DNA from: Salinicoccus sp. Bachu38
GTDB lineage: Bacteria > Bacillota > Bacilli > Staphylococcales > Salinicoccaceae
Assembly: GCF_038561955.2 (NCBI RefSeq)
Contig: NZ_CP138333.2
Location: forward strand, 558,001-622,000
Reading direction: 5' to 3'
Length of the DNA: 64,000 nt
Shown: positions 39,188 to 48,186 of the stretch, one piece after another
Layout: each line of letters opens with the position of its first letter
How positions within the stretch are numbered: the first letter of the stretch is position 1
Made by a program: the position numbers and the translations under genes
The notes under the pieces: model-generated
Seen by the model: the letters and a program-made list of their open reading frames with translations, nothing else
Told to the model about the DNA's origin: nothing
Databases searched by the model: none

Positions 39188-39592
39188 TCATGTCCGCCGC
39201 TCTATGCGGGGCGAGGATTTTATTTCCCGGTCGAGCCTGTAGAGCAGGCGGTTGATTTCCACCTGGTTGATCGCTTCGACGATGAAATAGGCGATGATCG
39301 TGTAGACGGTGATGGCAGCGATAAGCAGGATGTTGTTCTGGATGACGCTGATGACGAGGGCCGGCATGATGACGAGTGCAATGAACGCAAGCAGCATGCC
39401 GAGGCGGTTTCCGTATATGGCACGCTGGGTGTCCCGAAGCTGCTCCGAATACTTCTGGTTGACACGTTCGAGGTCCACATTCCGGGCGTCCCGGTACACT
39501 TTGGTGATGTGGACATCGCCGCCGTACTCATCTTTTGTATAGCGCAGATCCATATGCGAGTTGTCCCATGTAAGATATTTGAAAAAAGCCAT
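39188..39592 (-). CDS. Two-helix membrane protein beside Tat/GMC module 1
   Basis: A 134-residue protein: charged N-terminal half (about 1-60), two adjacent membrane helices (about 65-105), short charged tail. ATG 39592 is 8 nt after GGGAG. No family recognised. It is divergent from the Tat-signal subunit gene; a protein of the same layout stands at the mirror position (47752-48186), so both may serve the modules. Confidence 0.65.
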   Translation of the reverse strand: MAFFKYLTWDNSHMDLRYTKDEYGGDVHITKVYRDARNVDLERVNQKYSEQLRDTQRAIYGNRLGMLLAFIALVIMPALVISVIQNNILLIAAITVYTIIAYFIVEAINQVEINRLLYRLDREIKSSPRIERRT

Positions 39593-39673
39593 TACTTTCA
39601 CTCCCATCAGTGTTTGCAATATTCTAATAATATTATATAATGAAATCATCTATTTATCAAAGGGGTGTTGATT

Positions 39674-40474
39674 ATGGCGGAAAAAGGACCAGATGAAAAG
39701 CAGTTTTCGAGACGTGATTTCCTCAAGACCACGGGGGTCGCGACAGGCGGCATCATAGGCGGCTCGCTGCTTGGTGGTTTCGTAGGATTCAACATGAACG
39801 GGGACTCTGGTGGAGACACGGCGCAGAATGACCAGGAGAGCGGTGGAGATATTGCGCAGGGACAGCAGGACCCGGGCAGAGTCTTCTTTCATAACGACGC
39901 AGAATTCGAAACGATTTCCCAGGCCATGGAGCGTATTTTTCCGGAAGATGACATGGGACCCGGGGCCATCACACTCGGCGCACCCTATTTCCTGGATATG
40001 CAGCTGGCAGGACAATACGGCAATAACACGAGGGAGTATATGCAGGGACCCTTCTATGCAGGGGAAACGACGCAGGGGTACCAGGCCCGCCTGAGACGGG
40101 CAGAACTGTTCAGGTTGGGCATCGAGCGTCTGAACGCCGAGGCCAACGAGCAGTTCGATGATGACTTCAGCAACCTCGACGGGGAGGATCAGGATGAGAT
40201 ACTGACAAGGTTCCAGGAGGGGGAAGCCGATCTCGGTGTACCCGAGGACACGGCGAAGCCGGAAGACTTCTTCGGGCTCCTGCGTTCGGCAACGATCGAA
40301 GGGGTCTATGCCGATCCGCTCTATCGGGGCAACCGGGGCATGGAAGGCTGGAAGATGAAGAACTTCCCGGGCCACCAGTACCAGTATATCGACAGGATAC
40401 AGAGTGACAGCATGGTCGAGATCGACCCACAACCACTATTTGGAGGGGATCATAATGGCAACGGAAATGGATAG
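39674..40474 (+). CDS. Gluconate 2-dehydrogenase subunit 3-like protein with Tat signal (module 1)
   Basis: A 266-residue small subunit. FSRRDFLKTTG near residue 11 is a clean twin-arginine motif followed by a hydrophobic stretch with many Gly. The mature part shows the GDH subunit 3 segment (ERIFPEDDMGPGAITLG ... YFLDMQLAG). In this family the small subunit carries the folded flavoprotein partner across the membrane. It overlaps the GMC gene by 20 nt. Confidence 0.88.
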   Translation: MAEKGPDEKQFSRRDFLKTTGVATGGIIGGSLLGGFVGFNMNGDSGGDTAQNDQESGGDIAQGQQDPGRVFFHNDAEFETISQAMERIFPEDDMGPGAITLGAPYFLDMQLAGQYGNNTREYMQGPFYAGETTQGYQARLRRAELFRLGIERLNAEANEQFDDDFSNLDGEDQDEILTRFQEGEADLGVPEDTAKPEDFFGLLRSATIEGVYADPLYRGNRGMEGWKMKNFPGHQYQYIDRIQSDSMVEIDPQPLFGGDHNGNGNG

Positions 40475-42185
40475 GGTGGATGTAGTTACCGTCGGTGTCG
40501 GCTGGACAGGCGGCATCGTGGCAGCAGAAGCGGCGAAGGCGGGTCTTCAGGTAGTCGGCCTCGAAAGAGGAAGGGAACGCGGCACCGAGGACTATCAGCA
40601 TATTCATGATGAGTACAAGTATGCAATAAGATATGAACTGATGCAGGATGTATCGAAGGAGACACTGACATTCAGAAACAGCCGTGACCAGCGTGCATTG
40701 CCGATGCGGCAGCTCGGATCCTTCCTCCTCGGGGAAAACCTGGGCGGCGCCGGGACACACTGGAACGGCCAGACATGGCGCTTCCTGCCATATGACTTCG
40801 AAATCCGTTCAATGACGGAGGAGCGGTATGGCAGTGAAAAGTTGCGCGACGACGACGGATACAGGGTTCAAGACTGGGGTATTACATACGACGAGCTTGA
40901 GCCTTATTTCGACCAGTTTGAAAAGACAGCCGGCATTTCCGGCGAAGAAAACCCTCTGAGTGGCCCACGCTCCAATCCATACCCGACGCCACCAATGATG
41001 AAGACACGCATTCTGGAAATGTTTGAGGAGGCATCCTCCAACCTGGGCTATGACCCGATCATGATGCCTTCGGCGAACTTGAGTGAACAGTTCGAGAACC
41101 CGGATGGACAGACCATCGCTGCATGCCAGTACTGCGGATTCTGTGAACGTTTCGGCTGTGAGTATGGGGCAAAATCCTCTCCGGAAGTCACAGTCATCCC
41201 GGCTGCAAGGGAGACCGGCAACTTTGAAGTGCGCACACACTCCAACGTCGTTGAAATACTGACGGATGAAGATGATGACAGCCAGGTCACCGGCGTAAGG
41301 TATGTCGACACGCGTACCGGGGAGGAATTCATCCAGCCGGCGGATGTCGTAGTGCTGAACAGCTATGTATTCAACAACTACAAACTGCTCAGGGTTTCAG
41401 ACATCGGCCAGCAGTATGATCCTGAAACCGAAGAGGGTACGCTCGGCCGCAACTACTGCTACCAGATCTTCGGGGGCGCGACAGGCTACTTCGACGAACA
41501 GTTCAATACGTTCATGGGGGCAGGTGCCCTTGGCATGGCATTCGACAACTATAATGGAGACAACTTCGACCACTCCGATCTCGATTTTCTCCATGGCGGC
41601 AACATGGCGATCACCCAGACCGGCAACCGTCCGATTGCGACGAATACGATCAGACCGGATACGCCATCATGGGGCAGCGAATTCAAGAAGGAATCCATCG
41701 AAAACTATACGCGTACACTGCGTGTCCAGGGACAGGGGGCATCCCTTCCGCATAAGGACAACTACATCGACCTTGATGATGAATATACTGATGCGTATGG
41801 TATACCGCTCGTCCAGCTGACGTACAACTTCACCGACCAGGACGTGTCCGCCCAGAAGTACCTTGCAGAAAAAGCGGCCGAAGTGGTCGAGGAGATGGGT
41901 GCTAATGAAGTCGTCGTCGATGCGGAGATCTCCGATTACAGCATCGTGCCATACCAGTCCACACACAACACCGGTGGCACGGTGATGGGGGACGATCCGG
42001 AAACGAGCGTGACCAACAATTGGCTGCAGCACTGGGACCGTGACAATCTATTTGTTGTCGGCGCCGGCAGTTTCGTCCATAATAGTGGGTACAACCCAAC
42101 TGCAACAGTCGGTGCGCTCGCCTACCGCTGTGCAGAAGGCGTAATCAGATTCGCTGAGGAAGGCGGACGTCTCGAAGAAGAATAG
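40455..42185 (+). CDS. GMC oxidoreductase with cysteine cluster (module 1)
   Basis: A 576-residue FAD enzyme. The FAD-binding loop is GVGWTGG near residue 13. ACQYCGFCERFGC is a Cys cluster like the Fe-S site of FAD glucose/gluconate dehydrogenase large subunits. The C-terminal His/Asn active-site region is HNTGGTVMG ... NSGYNPTATVGALAYR. No own signal: probably exported with the Tat subunit. The usual cytochrome c subunit is not encoded here, so the electron acceptor is unknown. GGAGGGG precedes ATG 40455. Confidence 0.88.
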   Translation: MATEMDRVDVVTVGVGWTGGIVAAEAAKAGLQVVGLERGRERGTEDYQHIHDEYKYAIRYELMQDVSKETLTFRNSRDQRALPMRQLGSFLLGENLGGAGTHWNGQTWRFLPYDFEIRSMTEERYGSEKLRDDDGYRVQDWGITYDELEPYFDQFEKTAGISGEENPLSGPRSNPYPTPPMMKTRILEMFEEASSNLGYDPIMMPSANLSEQFENPDGQTIAACQYCGFCERFGCEYGAKSSPEVTVIPAARETGNFEVRTHSNVVEILTDEDDDSQVTGVRYVDTRTGEEFIQPADVVVLNSYVFNNYKLLRVSDIGQQYDPETEEGTLGRNYCYQIFGGATGYFDEQFNTFMGAGALGMAFDNYNGDNFDHSDLDFLHGGNMAITQTGNRPIATNTIRPDTPSWGSEFKKESIENYTRTLRVQGQGASLPHKDNYIDLDDEYTDAYGIPLVQLTYNFTDQDVSAQKYLAEKAAEVVEEMGANEVVVDAEISDYSIVPYQSTHNTGGTVMGDDPETSVTNNWLQHWDRDNLFVVGAGSFVHNSGYNPTATVGALAYRCAEGVIRFAEEGGRLEEE

Positions 42186-42194
42186 GTGATATAA

Positions 42195-43103
42195 ATGGAT
42201 CCATACCAAAACCTGAGCGTCAGTCCGGTACACAAGAGGAAAGCCGATAAGAATAAAAAAGATGAAGAGAAGAAAGTCTCAGGTGGCTCCGGCGGTTCCG
42301 GCGGAGGAGATGGTGGCAACGGCCCCCGCAACCCGCAGGAGCCGGAAGAACCGAAGAAAAGGAAAAAAGTGAGTACCGAAGACCCATATGCACCACTTAT
42401 GGATCATATCGAGGATCTGCGGAGCCTGCTGATCAAGTCGGCAGTCGTCTTCGTCCTGTGGTTCTTCATCATATTCATGACTGTCAGCTGGTGGTTCCCG
42501 GTCGTCTCCAAGGGTGCAGACATCATCGTCCTCGGACCCTTCGAAGTCATCCGGTTCTACATCCGGACGTCGGCAGCCATGAGTCTCGGACTCAGCCTGC
42601 CGTTCATCTGCTGGTTCCTCTGGCAGTTCGTCCGGCCCGGGCTGGTCGACAAGGAGACCCAGTTCCTGAAAGGGTCGCTGCCTGTAATGCTCGGGCTGTT
42701 CCTGGTCGGCCTCTCATTCGGCTATTTCGTCGTCCATCCGATCAGCTACTTCTTTCTGATCCAGATGGGGCAGGTCAACTTCGACGTGCTCGTCACAGCC
42801 GATGAGTACATGTCATTCCTGCTGATCACAACGATTCCGTTCGGGCTGATCTTCCAGCTGCCGATTGTCGTTTTATTCCTTAATCATATAGAATTGCTCG
42901 ATTCCGATCTCATGAAGAAATCCAGAAAGTTCGCCTACTTCGGGCTGCTTGTCATCACCGCAATCATTGCACCACCCGATTTCTTCACGCATCTCATTAC
43001 ACTCCTGCCGATGATCGGATTGTATGAAATCAGCATCATCCTCGTCAGACGAAAAGAGAGGCGCACCGCACAGAAAGAGAAAGCCGAAGCGGAGGCAGCT
43101 TAA
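42195..43103 (+). CDS. tatC: Tat translocase TatC (module 1) with basic N-terminal extension
   Basis: A 302-residue six-helix TatC, the twin-arginine signal receptor. The core begins at about residue 65 (MDHIEDLRSLLIKS) and contains IRFYIRTSAAMSLGLSLPF and the FxxxE-type loop. The first 60 residues are a Lys/Gly/Ser-rich tail absent from common TatC proteins. Nine nt after the GMC gene, so dedicated to this substrate. No tatA is visible in the window. Confidence 0.9.
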   Translation: MDPYQNLSVSPVHKRKADKNKKDEEKKVSGGSGGSGGGDGGNGPRNPQEPEEPKKRKKVSTEDPYAPLMDHIEDLRSLLIKSAVVFVLWFFIIFMTVSWWFPVVSKGADIIVLGPFEVIRFYIRTSAAMSLGLSLPFICWFLWQFVRPGLVDKETQFLKGSLPVMLGLFLVGLSFGYFVVHPISYFFLIQMGQVNFDVLVTADEYMSFLLITTIPFGLIFQLPIVVLFLNHIELLDSDLMKKSRKFAYFGLLVITAIIAPPDFFTHLITLLPMIGLYEISIILVRRKERRTAQKEKAEAEAA

Positions 43104-43114
43104 TCTGACTCGGA

Positions 43115-43143
43115 CCAGGGGGGCCATGGGCCCTCCTTTTTTT
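43115..43143 (+). terminator. Terminator of module 1
   Basis: AGGGGGGCC-ATG-GGCCCTCCT followed by seven T. Confidence 0.88.
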
Positions 43144-43280
43144 GTTTGGGGGCCTTTGTTTTGGGAGTGGGGCAGTCCGGCTCCCCTCTCTCAAAAACAA
43201 ATCACACGCAAATCCCATATAATCAGTCAGTATTTGTTATAGTATAGGAAACGAGAAGGAATGGAAAAGGAGATGGAGAG

Positions 43281-44180
43281 ATGCAGAAAGTAAGAAAAGC
43301 GGTCATTCCGGCTGCGGGGCTCGGAACGCGGTTCCTGCCGGCAACGAAAGCGATGCCGAAGGAGATGCTGCCGATTCTGGACAAGCCGACGATCCAGTAT
43401 ATCGTCGAAGAGGCGGTGGAAGCGGGCATCGAGGATATCATCATCGTCACCGGCAAGCATAAGCGGGCGATCGAGGATCACTTCGACCATCAGATCGAGC
43501 TTGAGATGAATCTGAAAAATAAGGAGAAGTTCGAACTGCTGGAAAAAGTCGAGCATGCGACTGGACTGGCGAACATCTTCTATGTCAGGCAGAAATCCCC
43601 CAAAGGGCTCGGCCATGCCATACATACAGCCAGGCAGTTCATCGGCGACGAACCCTTCGCAGTCCTGCTCGGGGATGACATTGTAGACAATGAAGGCGGC
43701 ACACCTGCAATCGGCCAGCTGATCGAGCAGTATAACGCGTGCCAAAGTCCGATCATCGGGGTGAAGCAGGTGCCGAAATCCGAGACTTCCCGTTATGGGA
43801 TCGTGGAATTCGACCGGCAGAAGGGCAACCTGTACCATCTGTCCGACATGTTCGAGAAGCCGGCACCGGGTGTGACGGACTCCACACTGGCCATCATGGG
43901 CCGCTATGTCCTGACACCTGAAATATTCGACCACCTGGAAAAAGGGGAGGTCGGCGCCGGCGGAGAGATCCAGCTGACGGATGCGATCCGGGCAGTCGGC
44001 GAAGCGGGCGGCGATGTGCATGCCGTCGATTTCGAAGGACGCCGTTATGACGTAGGGGACAAGACCGGCTTCGTCAAGACGACGATTGAATACGCGTTGA
44101 AATCCGACATGAGGGATGAACTTTTGGAGTTCATGGCGGAAACATTGAAGAAGAACGAAAGCGCAAGCAGACAACAGTAA
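43281..44180 (+). CDS. galU: UTP-glucose-1-phosphate uridylyltransferase
   Basis: Makes UDP-glucose for glycolipid anchors and wall polymers. 299 residues, nucleotidyltransferase fold with [21 protein letters not shown] (split: [11 protein letters not shown] then ATKAMPKEM) and EKPAPG. In this genome it stands between the two mirror-image Tat/GMC modules; a functional tie to LtaA-linked glycolipid synthesis is through UDP-glucose. Confidence 0.95.
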
Positions 44181-44185
44181 AAATA

Positions 44186-44236
44186 AAAAGCGGCATGGCC
44201 TTGATCCATACAGGATGCAAAGTCATGCCGCTTCTT
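44186..44236. terminator. Bidirectional terminator between galU and tatC-2
   Basis: AAAGCGGCATG pairs with CATGCCGCTT; an inner TGATCC-type stem adds to it. A-run and T-run are on both sides. Confidence 0.85.
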
Positions 44237-45054
44237 TATTTTGCCGCTTCCATTTTCCGTGCTTTTTTCAACGCGCGCCTCTCCCTCAGCTTGACGAGGT
44301 AGATGCTGATTTCATATAGGACAATCATCGGCGCGACTGTAATAAGATGGGTGAAGAAGTCCGGTGGAACAATCAGTGCAGTAATGACGAGCAGGCCGAA
44401 ATACACATATTTGCGGACCTGCTTCATCAGTACCGAGTCGAGCAGCTCAATGTGGTGCAGGAAAAGGACGACGATCGGCAGCTGGAAGATCAGGCCGAAC
44501 GGCATCGTCGTCATCAGCAGGAATGACATGTACTCATCCGCCGTGACGAGGACATCGAAATTTTCCTCGCCCATCTGGATCAGGAAGAAGTAGCTGATCG
44601 GATGGACCACAAAGTATCCGAAGGAAAGTCCCGCGAGGAAAAGCAGGAACATGATCGGAAAATAGGACTTCAGAAACTGGGTCTCCTTTTCCACAAGACC
44701 GGGCCGCATGAACTGCCAGACGAAGTAGCAGATGAAGGGCAGGCTGAGCCCGATGCCGAGGGCTCCCGACGTCCGGATGTAGAACCGGATGACTTCGAAC
44801 GGGCCCCTGACGATCAAGTCGTGCCCCTTCGTCAGATAGGGGAACCAGTACTGGATCGTCAGGAAGATCAGCATGAAGAAGAAGACGAACACCACAGCCG
44901 ACTTGATCAGCATGCTTCTCAGATCACTGATGTGCTCGATCAGTGTCGCATCGGGCGTTTCGACGGTCACCTTCCGGCGCTTTTCCGCTTTTGTCATGCC
45001 ACCCTGTGCCGCTTCCTTGAGTGCCTCTTTCCTTGTGTTTTCATTATTGCTCAT
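44236..45054 (-). CDS. tatC: Tat translocase TatC (module 2)
   Basis: A 272-residue six-helix TatC closely related to the module 1 protein (shared IRFYIRTSGALGIGLSLPF, VHPISYFFLIQMG). The N-terminal extension is about 40 residues and basic. ATG 45054 follows AGGTGAG. It is the last gene of the mirrored module, 92 nt after the GMC gene. Confidence 0.9.
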   Translation of the reverse strand: MSNNENTRKEALKEAAQGGMTKAEKRRKVTVETPDATLIEHISDLRSMLIKSAVVFVFFFMLIFLTIQYWFPYLTKGHDLIVRGPFEVIRFYIRTSGALGIGLSLPFICYFVWQFMRPGLVEKETQFLKSYFPIMFLLFLAGLSFGYFVVHPISYFFLIQMGEENFDVLVTADEYMSFLLMTTMPFGLIFQLPIVVLFLHHIELLDSVLMKQVRKYVYFGLLVITALIVPPDFFTHLITVAPMIVLYEISIYLVKLRERRALKKARKMEAAK

Positions 45055-45146
45055 AGCGCTCACCTGTCATCCATTATAAATGCAGCAGGCATACACTTTC
45101 AGAAAAATGCATATGCCTGAATAATTCATCTTTCCGCTGAATAAAG

Positions 45147-46862
45147 TTAAGCGTCGACAAGCGGGCCGTTGTCATCGAGGTACTGCTCGATGCCTTCAGC
45201 TGCACGGTATGCCAGGGCACCGACCGTACCTGTCGGATTGTAGCCGCCGTTGTGCGGGAAGTTCGATCCGCCGATGACGAACACATTGTCTGCATCCCAC
45301 ATCTGGAGGTAGTTGTTGACGACGCTCGTTTCCGGGTCAGCCCCCATGATTGTACCGCCGACAATATGGTCGTTATGGGCGGGCAGTATATCAAAGTGCT
45401 CGCCGAGCTCGCTGCGGTTCTTGGATACCGGGTTCATTTCATCCAGTATCTCCTCGATGCGGTCCGCAATGTACTCGTGTACATTCCTGTCATGGTCGGT
45501 GACGTCATAGGTGACCCGGAGAAGTGGGCGGCCATAATCATCCGTGTATGTCGGATCGAGGGACAGGTAGTTGTTTACATAAGGGAGTGTGATCATCTGT
45601 GCCCATGCCCCTGCAGAGCGATTATATGCATTGATGGACTCATTCTTGAACTCGGCCCCCCAATTCTTCGTACCCTGGGGTACTGCATTCTCAAGGATTG
45701 GGCGCTTGCCCTGCTGTTTCATGGATATCGATCCGCCGTGGATGAAGTCGACATCCGAGTGGTCGAAGTTGTCATTGTTGTAGTCATCGATGGTCACCCC
45801 GAGGGCGCCGGCACCCATGGACATGTTGTATTCCTTGTCGAAGAAGGCGGTGACGGATGGCGTGATATGGAGACAGTAGTTCTTTCCGACTGCCCCGTCG
45901 CCTGTTTCAGGGTCATACGCCGTACCCAGTTCGGAGTGGAGCAGCAGTTTCGTATTGTTCGTCGTATGGCTTGTGACCACGACGACATCCGCCGGCTGGA
46001 TGTATTCGAGTTGGGTCCGCGGATCGATGTAGTGCACACCGGTCACTTCCCCGTCCTCCTTCAGTATTTCAAGGACATTTGCGTTCGTGCGCAGTTCGAA
46101 GTTGTCATGCTGCTTGGCGACCGGAATCGTTGTGACGATCGGAGAGGATTTCGCCCCCCATTCACAGCCGAATTTTTCACAGAATCCGCAGTACTGGCAC
46201 GCGGCGAGTGTCATGCCATCCGGATTCGTATATTGTTCCGACATGTTGCCGGCAGGTGTCCTGAACGGAGTGGCACCCGCCGCTTCACAGGCCGCCTTGA
46301 AATCCGAAAGGAGCGGCGTCATCTTCATCGGTGGTGTCGGATACGGTTTTCTGCGTTCCGGACCCATCGGGTTCTGCTCCCCGCTGATGCCGGCCGTCTC
46401 TTCAAATTTTTCATAATACGGCAGGAGCTCGTCATATGTAATGCCCCAGTCCTGTATCAGGTAATCGTCGGAAACTTTGTCCGGACCATATTTCTCCTCT
46501 GTCCGTGATTTCAGTTCAAAGTCGTATGGGTTATAGAACCATGTATCACCGTTCCAGTGGACACCACCACCACCAACATCCGTCCCGATCAGGAATGCAC
46601 CGAAGCGGCGCATCGGCAAAGCCTCCTCATCAAGCGCATTGCGGTAAGTGATGGTCTCCTTGGAAAGGTCCTGCATCATTTCGTGCCCGACGACATAGCG
46701 ATATTCATCGTGCGCAGTCAGATAGTCCTCCGTCGTCTTCTCGCGACCCCGTTCGAGACCGAGTACCTGCTTGCCGGATTTAGCAAGCTCGGCAGCGACG
46801 ATGCTTCCTGCCCAGCCCATGCCGACAACGACAACTTCCTTTTTATCGAGTGTTTCAGCCAT
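45147..46862 (-). CDS. GMC oxidoreductase with cysteine cluster (module 2)
   Basis: A 571-residue paralogue of 40455-42185, visibly similar throughout (shared NPYDFEL-type, QDWGITYDEL, TAGISGE, NPDGxTxAACQYCGFCE). The FAD loop is GMGWAGS; the Cys cluster ACQYCGFCEKFGC and C-terminal NGGYNPTGTVGALAYR are intact. Substrate probably a sugar or polyol, with divergence between the two copies suggesting different substrates. Confidence 0.88.
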   Translation of the reverse strand: MAETLDKKEVVVVGMGWAGSIVAAELAKSGKQVLGLERGREKTTEDYLTAHDEYRYVVGHEMMQDLSKETITYRNALDEEALPMRRFGAFLIGTDVGGGGVHWNGDTWFYNPYDFELKSRTEEKYGPDKVSDDYLIQDWGITYDELLPYYEKFEETAGISGEQNPMGPERRKPYPTPPMKMTPLLSDFKAACEAAGATPFRTPAGNMSEQYTNPDGMTLAACQYCGFCEKFGCEWGAKSSPIVTTIPVAKQHDNFELRTNANVLEILKEDGEVTGVHYIDPRTQLEYIQPADVVVVTSHTTNNTKLLLHSELGTAYDPETGDGAVGKNYCLHITPSVTAFFDKEYNMSMGAGALGVTIDDYNNDNFDHSDVDFIHGGSISMKQQGKRPILENAVPQGTKNWGAEFKNESINAYNRSAGAWAQMITLPYVNNYLSLDPTYTDDYGRPLLRVTYDVTDHDRNVHEYIADRIEEILDEMNPVSKNRSELGEHFDILPAHNDHIVGGTIMGADPETSVVNNYLQMWDADNVFVIGGSNFPHNGGYNPTGTVGALAYRAAEGIEQYLDDNGPLVDA

Positions 46863-46881
46863 TTCATTCGCCTCCTAGTGA

Positions 46882-47661
46882 TTAATGGGAAATGTGTGTA
46901 GAATTCGACTGCATTTCCTTCTCCACAAATCCTTCCTGTTCGATTTCCTCTCTGTAACTCATATATGCACCCGGGAACTTTTTCATCTCCCAGCCCTTCA
47001 TTTCAATGTTGCCCCCATACAGTGGATCAGCATAGGCGCCTGAAAGCGTGACAAGGCGCAGCTCCTCGAAGAAATCCCCGGCTTCGAGCCCCGGCAACTC
47101 CAGCTCGTTCTCCTGCATGCGGGTAAGGATCTCGTCCTGCTGTCCGCCTTCGAGTTCATAGAAGGGCACATCATGAGCGGATAACGCCTCTTCATTCATG
47201 AGACGCATCCCGTCCCGGAAAATATCCCTTCTGAGCGTCGCATACTGTGGACCCTGGAAGTCTGTGCCTTCCTTGAAGGGACCCTTCATGTACTCCCGTG
47301 CATTCGCACCATATCCGCCTGAAAGCTCATGGTCGATGAACCATGCGACTCCAAGCGCCTGGGCGCCCGGTCCATTATCATCTTCAGGGAAGATCCGCTC
47401 CGTCGCTGCTTCGATTATTTGGAATTCCTCCGGATTCTGGAAGAACTTATATGCACGTGTGAAGTTCTGCTGCTGGCTGCCGGAATCGGATCCCTCTGAA
47501 TCTCCCTGACTTCCGGTTTCGGGTTCATCAGTTGCCGGAGGCGCTTCATCACCGAGCAGCGATCCAAGGTATGTACCCGTTATAAGCGTTCCTGTGGCCA
47601 CACCCGACATCTTTAAGAAATTTCGTCTTGAAAAAGACTTTTCTGTTTCCTCGTTAGACAT
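46882..47661 (-). CDS. Gluconate 2-dehydrogenase subunit 3-like protein with Tat signal (module 2)
   Basis: A 259-residue paralogue of 39674-40474. SRRNFLKMSG is the twin-arginine motif; an acidic linker (about 45-70) precedes the family domain (ATERIFPEDDNGPGAQALG). Next gene, the GMC enzyme, starts 19 nt later. Confidence 0.88.
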   Translation of the reverse strand: MSNEETEKSFSRRNFLKMSGVATGTLITGTYLGSLLGDEAPPATDEPETGSQGDSEGSDSGSQQQNFTRAYKFFQNPEEFQIIEAATERIFPEDDNGPGAQALGVAWFIDHELSGGYGANAREYMKGPFKEGTDFQGPQYATLRRDIFRDGMRLMNEEALSAHDVPFYELEGGQQDEILTRMQENELELPGLEAGDFFEELRLVTLSGAYADPLYGGNIEMKGWEMKKFPGAYMSYREEIEQEGFVEKEMQSNSTHISH

Positions 47662-47751
47662 ATCCTCACCTCTATATTAGAATTGAATGAATGTTACATC
47701 TTTATGTCCATATATATTAAACCAAAACAAACCATCATACAAGGAGGAAAA

Positions 47752-48186
47752 ATGATGCCTGTCCCATTGACAAAAGCTTCCAGATATCTTTTCAAACCGA
47801 ATCCGAATGTCGGAATAAAATACAAGGAACACGACATCAGCGGAGAGAAGAGGGTGACGGAATTTCTCACGCCTCACAAACTGGAGGAACTGGATCCGGA
47901 AGCAAAGGAGCACCACCGTACATTCATCGGGGAAATCGATGAAGCGGTCCAGCAGCAGATGAAGCAGACAAGCTTCTACCGATATGTCGCCATCGCGCTG
48001 CTCATCCTTACCATCATCCTGCCAAGCCTGCTCCTCTTCTTTCTGGGCGGCAGCCACTGGGGGCTGATCGGCGGGGTCTATTATGCATTCTTCGCCTATA
48101 TCCTGGTCGAGGCCTACATCACGGCGAACAGGAATTATTTCGAGTACCAGCTCTATGAGAAGTTTGAAAACGAATATTTGAAATGA
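47752..48186 (+). CDS. Two-helix membrane protein beside Tat/GMC module 2
   Basis: A 144-residue protein with charged N-terminal half (about 1-75), two membrane helices (about 78-120) and a short polar tail. AAGGAGG precedes the ATG. Layout and divergent position mirror 39188-39592, though sequence similarity is slight. Function unknown. Confidence 0.65.
   Translation: MMPVPLTKASRYLFKPNPNVGIKYKEHDISGEKRVTEFLTPHKLEELDPEAKEHHRTFIGEIDEAVQQQMKQTSFYRYVAIALLILTIILPSLLLFFLGGSHWGLIGGVYYAFFAYILVEAYITANRNYFEYQLYEKFENEYLK

Follow-up and report, generated by a model that had tools for sequence, protein, structure and literature searches.

The window, a stretch of 64,000 nucleotides from the genome of Salinicoccus sp. 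Bachu38 (one contig, 2.62 Mb), carries two mirrored sets of four genes on either side of a gene that is presumably galU, for UTP-glucose-1-phosphate uridylyltransferase (43281..44180, + strand), a neighbour outside the module. Each set, labelled A or B, encodes a small two-helix membrane protein (2-TM protein), a subunit 3 with a Tat signal, a GMC enzyme and an accessory TatC. Set A consists of 2TM-A (39188..39592, − strand, in an open frame from 39649), sub3-A, of the gluconate-2-dehydrogenase subunit 3 family and with the Tat signal FSRRDFLK (39674..40474, +, alternative start at 39665), GMC-A, an FAD-dependent GMC oxidoreductase with a four-cysteine cluster whose gene overlaps the 3' end of sub3-A (40455..42185, +), and TatC-A (42195..43103, +), identified by Pfam and by alignment of its signal pocket and followed on its 3' side by a terminator-like hairpin and T run (43117..43144, +). 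Beyond galU lie TatC-B, the second accessory TatC (44236..45063, −, with a possible start at the ATG at 45054), GMC-B, a GMC oxidoreductase of an older B clade with the same four-cysteine cluster (45147..46862, −), sub3-B, with the Tat signal FSRRNFLK (46882..47661, −), and 2TM-B, the B-type two-helix membrane protein (47752..48186, +). An inverted repeat between the converging galU and TatC-B genes (44179..44242), with two 25-nt arms that are 80% complementary and spaced by 14 nt, may be a terminator. For sub3-A and 2TM-A the more likely starts are the ATG at 39674 and position 39592, respectively, since by eye a ribosome-binding-like sequence lies directly 5' of both. All eight genes and their strands, as obtained from open reading frames and Pfam, agree with the mirrored layout described in an earlier, sequence-only reading of this DNA.

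Pfam searches place the subunit 3 pair in PF13618 (3.9e-29 and 2.4e-27), the GMC pair in GMC_oxred_C (3.9e-19 and 1.3e-21) and TatC-A and TatC-B in the TatC family (2e-48 and 1.4e-48); both accessory TatCs also exceed the cut-offs of PF00902 (165.4 and 165.9 bits against 25.1) and of TIGR00945 (149.2 and 149.9 against 132.7). Among PDB sequences, GMC-B is related by phmmer to the large subunit of fructose dehydrogenase (7w2j, 2.1e-27) and to a Burkholderia glucose dehydrogenase (1.6e-23). The motif C-x2-C-x2-C-x4-C, with all four cysteines invariant across nine aligned GMC proteins, falls, in the alignment with fructose dehydrogenase, close to that enzyme's Fe-S cysteines, in agreement with the Fe-S-type cysteine clusters noted earlier, the Fe-S cluster itself being predicted; the Fe-S ligands of BcGDH are known (PMC6719666, in part), and the cysteines reported here fall in the matching loop with a different spacing. 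Measured against the fructose/glucose dehydrogenase complexes, the module thus offers a GMC catalytic subunit with predicted Fe-S cysteines and a small subunit with a Tat signal (PF13618), although subunit 3 had no sequence match among the solved small subunits. A multihaem cytochrome c has no counterpart between 36 and 52 kb, where no real gene contains CXXCH and the single match lies in a 37-aa open frame, and on this point the earlier reading holds.

Genome-wide, TIGR01409 (E <= 1) recognized Tat signals in sub3-A and sub3-B only, and PF10518 added a single match (E 1.5) in a 36-aa frame, both being models that miss some substrates. The GMC subunit has no recognized Tat signal, and subunit 3 carries one, which reads SRRDFLK or SRRNFLK in all copies whose N-terminus was called (32 of 33) and likewise in sub3-A of the window. 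Each set would most likely encode an exported two-subunit flavoenzyme. Subunit 3, as the sole bearer of a Tat signal, may take the signal-less GMC protein across the membrane with it, the "hitchhiker" route used by fructose and FAD-glucose dehydrogenases, and electrons would pass from FAD to the predicted Fe-S cluster and on to an acceptor for which the module has no gene. The source genome has three TatC genes and two convincing Tat signals, so its TatCs may outnumber their substrates.

The 2-TM proteins are less easily placed. Neither reaches the cut-off of a Pfam family, and direct comparison of 2TM-A with 2TM-B gave no match (E 0.04); they join into one family through their relatives. Four positions of the 2-TM protein are invariant, R63, P77 and E106 included. 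The AlphaFold2 model of 2TM-A (pLDDT 83.5) has a short strand hairpin followed by two long helices, and no fold in the PDB matched it at E <= 0.001. A 2-TM gene stands beside TatC-A in 29/31 genomes, both gaps being at contig ends, and was found beside 2/26 fetched outgroup loci.

The earlier reading had seen no TatA partner and had suggested looking for tatA and further tatC genes elsewhere in the genome. No TatA-like ORF is present in the window (a weak match, E 0.13, was discarded because the protein is not TatA-like), so that TatA is not encoded beside TatC as in a minimal TatAC system of the Bacillus type. The genome search located a third, housekeeping TatC at 2,067 kb, adjoining the one TatA that was detected genome-wide (G000:C1:2068075) and a gene that we take to be rex. 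The same economy of TatA is seen in the host family, sampled with 33 genomes of six genera: one TatA was detected in 32 of them and two in none. Nosocomiicoccus massiliensis (G018), a draft of 93% completeness, has an accessory TatC and yielded neither TatA nor housekeeping TatC, perhaps merely through missing sequence. Among 41 stretches searched (the window and 40 fetched family loci, processed with a simple ORF caller and then clustered), the 36 that hold an accessory tatC contain no tatA, and a profile search of the ORFs of at least 35 codons in all 41 disclosed no hidden TatA in the module. Outside the family, tatA lies between the GMC gene and tatC in 16/16 tatC-linked loci, and among the 38 listed genomes of another Bacilli family, f4, at least two TatA occur in 23/23 that bear GMC and one in 13/15 that do not. 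From the outgroup position of tatA and these counts, the host family most likely lost the tatA of the module, in which case both accessory TatCs must rely on the housekeeping TatA. The two private export systems that had been envisaged are thus at odds with a housekeeping tatA-tatC locus that holds the only TatA detected; the earlier reading had itself named a housekeeping TatC exporting both enzymes as evidence to the contrary, and of this the locus, at least, is present.

The association of these TatCs with this kind of cargo extends well beyond the host family. In a survey of the class Bacilli, in which the best three GMC and best seven TatC candidates of each genome were scored, GMC was found at E <= 1e-60 in 59/398 genomes, and at least two TatC were present in 47/59 GMC-bearing against 51/339 GMC-less genomes; in f4 the corresponding figures were 22/23 and 2/15 of the listed genomes (p 2.5e-7), genomes being counted as independent in both comparisons and those with no TatC at all being listed only in part. 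TatC lies beside GMC at 15/16 outgroup loci of f4, at 1/1 of f54 and at 0/9 of f23 (26 loci, flanks of 1.5 kb). A linkage so widespread makes an export role of these TatCs likely. The nine f23 loci (L095-L097, L099-L104) show a subunit 3 and GMC pair with no TatC within 1.5 kb, and such a pair can hence exist without a linked TatC.

Within the host family GMC-A is found throughout, and GMC-B in 9/33 genomes, five of which are Salinicoccus with GMC-B adjoining TatC-B. In the other four (G002, G003, G006, G007), the Jeotgalicoccus species J. aerolatus, J. coquinae, J. meleagridis and J. nanhaiensis, 2TM-B, sub3-B and GMC-B stand together, and the flanks that were fetched contain no TatC. Conversely, TatC-B occurs in 13 genomes and cassette B is absent from 8 of these: three are Salinicoccus in which TatC-B stands at galU and is followed immediately by the next conserved gene, and in five g4 genomes (L037, L039, L041, L043, L045) TatC-B, with a full signal pocket, lies at an unrelated locus with no oxidoreductase nearby, adjoining genes that are presumably gcvP (glycine decarboxylase) subunits. 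TatC-A is not strictly tied to its cargo either, since three genomes (G011, G015, G016; loci L038, L044, L046) have lost sub3-A and GMC-A from the site and keep TatC-A and 2TM-A beside galU. A rule of one TatC per enzyme was considered and discarded, as several genomes hold three to five GMC and one accessory TatC. Two further kinds of GMC gene were seen: Nosocomiicoccus-type loci (L047:5099-8581 and L049) carry two in tandem, the second strongly diverged (branch about 0.44), and several family genomes (L052, L053, L054, L056) have a third, deeper GMC and subunit 3 type that is unlinked to TatC.

Both accessory TatCs have the N-terminal extension noticed previously, of 66 and 39 residues compared with 11 in the housekeeping TatC, although its description as basic is weak because the charge is mixed (14 K+R and 11 D+E in the longer, 8 and 6 in the shorter). 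In the pocket in which TatC holds the twin-arginine signal, E. coli H12, E15, F94, Y100 and E103 are the contacts, and E103A serves as a non-binding control (PMC13323110, in part). TatC-A and TatC-B of the window both show H, D, F, V and E at these positions, as does each of the family's 33 intact accessory TatCs, E15 being replaced by D and Y100 by V. In the 18 genomes without TatC-B, TatC-A is always acidic at 15 and 103; in the 13 with TatC-B, the acid at 15 is gone from 11 TatC-A copies and that at 103 from six as well, leaving 20/31 TatC-A pockets intact, whereas TatC-B is acidic at both positions in 13/13. The two genomes that have TatC-B and yet an intact TatC-A are the window genome and its nearest relative, S. 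luteus (96% identity in GMC-B). The strong cases are six Salinicoccus copies, with Q, A/S, Y, x and N/Q/K at 12/15/94/100/103, in which H12 has in addition given way to Q and F94 to Y. Five g4 copies have H, A, F, I and D/E, and these may still read signals, because E15G alone merely slowed the growth of E. coli (PMC3712464, in part).

A tree built from three housekeeping proteins encoded nearby covers 28/31 genomes (too few of these genes were available for G026, G027 and G030, of which G027 is one of the two intact-pocket exceptions); on it, three changes are required to explain the degenerate state and four to explain the presence of TatC-B. An independent-pairs test of pocket change against TatC-B gave three pairs for, none against and one tie (p 0.25), and the association, with about three origins, is thus suggestive but below significance. 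Nine of 110 conserved mapped columns are changed in the degenerate set, and six of these nine lie in pocket regions, against 9/101 of the unchanged columns (p 1.6e-4, in a post hoc test in which column 15 had itself defined the set). It could be argued that TatC-A, once TatC-B is present, is a redundant copy in slow decay and that its residue changes reflect relaxation with no specialization; the degenerate copies do sit on longer tree stems, and their dN/dS is somewhat above that of TatC-B in 4/5 pairs. We regard this as possible but doubtful, because their open frames are full-length in 11/11 genomes, their dN/dS is only 0.08-0.13 (0.03-0.10 for TatC-B, five pairs each), and the positions corresponding to E. 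coli 205, 211 and 215 are the same in degenerate and intact copies.

The mirror itself had been taken for an inverted duplication that has since diverged, to be judged by a phylogenetic comparison of the copies. Identity between the A and B paralogues is 73% for TatC, 55% for GMC and 47% for subunit 3, the inverted DNA arms amount to 699 nt at 75% across tatC and 215 nt at 73% within GMC, and closer relatives of both copies exist in other genomes. In a tree with outgroups (15/26 outgroup loci used, family rows of seven loci omitted), GMC-A groups with the GMC of f4 (100/98) and a clade of A and B is rejected (AU p 0.0026), so that the split of the GMC copies predates their divergence from the GMC of another Bacilli family. 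The comparison is less decisive for TatC: in the rooted tree (nine family loci and L087 omitted, the N-terminus being missing from the frame used) A and B are joined in the best topology (98/94), and the rival rootings A+f4 (AU p 0.076) and B+f4 (p 0.49) are not rejected; the best topology corresponds to a TatC duplication inside the family. The first trees had excluded rows shorter than 230 aa for TatC, 500 aa for GMC and 200 aa for subunit 3. The GMC tree, synteny and identity lead us to reject a recent inverted duplication, and with cassette and TatC copies that occur apart in relatives the pair is old and probably mosaic, the mirror at galU being probably an assembled pair. An ancient duplication of the whole module (2-TM protein, subunit 3, GMC and TatC) before the split between the host family and f4, with later losses and moves, a mirror that is their remnant and two TatCs that are both ordinary dedicated receptors, would fit the existence of A and B types for all four gene kinds and the TatC rooting with f4 that the data tolerate. 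We consider it unlikely, since the best TatC tree joins the very copies that the GMC tree separates, and since cassette B and TatC-B each occur without the other. That the housekeeping TatC exports both enzymes while the accessory TatCs serve another role is improbable, for although a complete housekeeping tatA-tatC is present and three genomes retain TatC-A after losing the cargo genes linked to it, the accessory TatCs are linked to and co-occur with this cargo across the Bacilli and have intact pockets in TatC-B and most TatC-A.

The explanation that we favor, with moderate confidence, is that the locus encodes exported flavoenzymes whose linked TatCs share one TatA and, in the family, are starting to divide the recognition of signals. 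The ancestral module would probably have been sub3-GMC-tatA-tatC, an arrangement that persists in f4, with the linked TatC acting as receptor for its cargo, and both accessory TatCs would now work with the single housekeeping TatA. In most relatives that have both, TatC-B, which keeps the twin-arginine pocket, may have taken over signal reading, and TatC-A would be altered there but intact as a gene and under constraint. Since neither the window genome nor S. luteus has an altered pocket, the proposed division of labor is read from the other relatives.

A bolder extension, in our view quite unlikely, is a mixed Tat receptor in which TatC-B reads the twin-arginine signal and TatC-A is a "blind" structural subunit, asymmetry arising from two TatCs and one TatA; the 2-TM protein would be a further partner replacing the lost tatA, and the window would represent a stage before the roles split. 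It is conceivable that the two TatC paralogues would form one mixed complex, given that TatC works as an oligomer (PMC5102672, in part) and that three TatCs whose sites are not equivalent make up a trimer in the E. coli core (PMC13323110, in part). Where there is a single tatC gene, the number of signal-reading TatCs per working Tat complex is difficult to establish, and paralogue pairs in which one partner alone has altered its recognition pocket, apparently several times, are natural test cases for it; several TatCs served by one TatA, together with the inferred loss of tatA from the module, make a further case. This receptor pattern across relatives is what deserves specialist attention, and the exported group of GMC and subunit 3 proteins without a cytochrome subunit is wide in Bacilli and little described. 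In the open-licence literature we found no description of the TatC pair or of its one-sided pocket pattern, and nothing useful on the double TatC of haloarchaea as a parallel.

Compared with known systems, the enzyme resembles fructose dehydrogenase and the Burkholderia FAD-glucose dehydrogenase in its GMC subunit with a cysteine cluster in the matching loop and, as far as the genes suggest, in a small Tat-signal subunit that enables hitchhiking (PMC6719666, in part). It differs from these Gram-negative FAD dehydrogenases in having no nearby cytochrome c, another cysteine spacing, a linked TatC and a 2-TM protein. The f4/f54 operon sub3-GMC-tatA-tatC shares the cargo pair and likewise has a TatC linked to it, but it keeps tatA and is single, not paired around galU, and the 2-TM gene is rare at outgroup loci. 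As with TatAd-TatCd and TatAy-TatCy of Bacillus, there is more than one TatC per genome and a TatC is linked to its likely substrate, oxidoreductases also adjoining some tatC operons of Bacilli; in Bacillus, however, each TatC has its own TatA (PMC3827258, in part), whereas the host family has a single detected TatA for two to three TatCs, and the signal pocket of one of the TatC paralogues is often altered. In E. coli, whose pocket residues were those compared here, the Tat core is an asymmetric TatA1B2C3 assembly that owes its asymmetry to TatA and TatB (PMC13323110, in part), while in Salinicoccus and its relatives an asymmetry, if real, would come from two TatCs.
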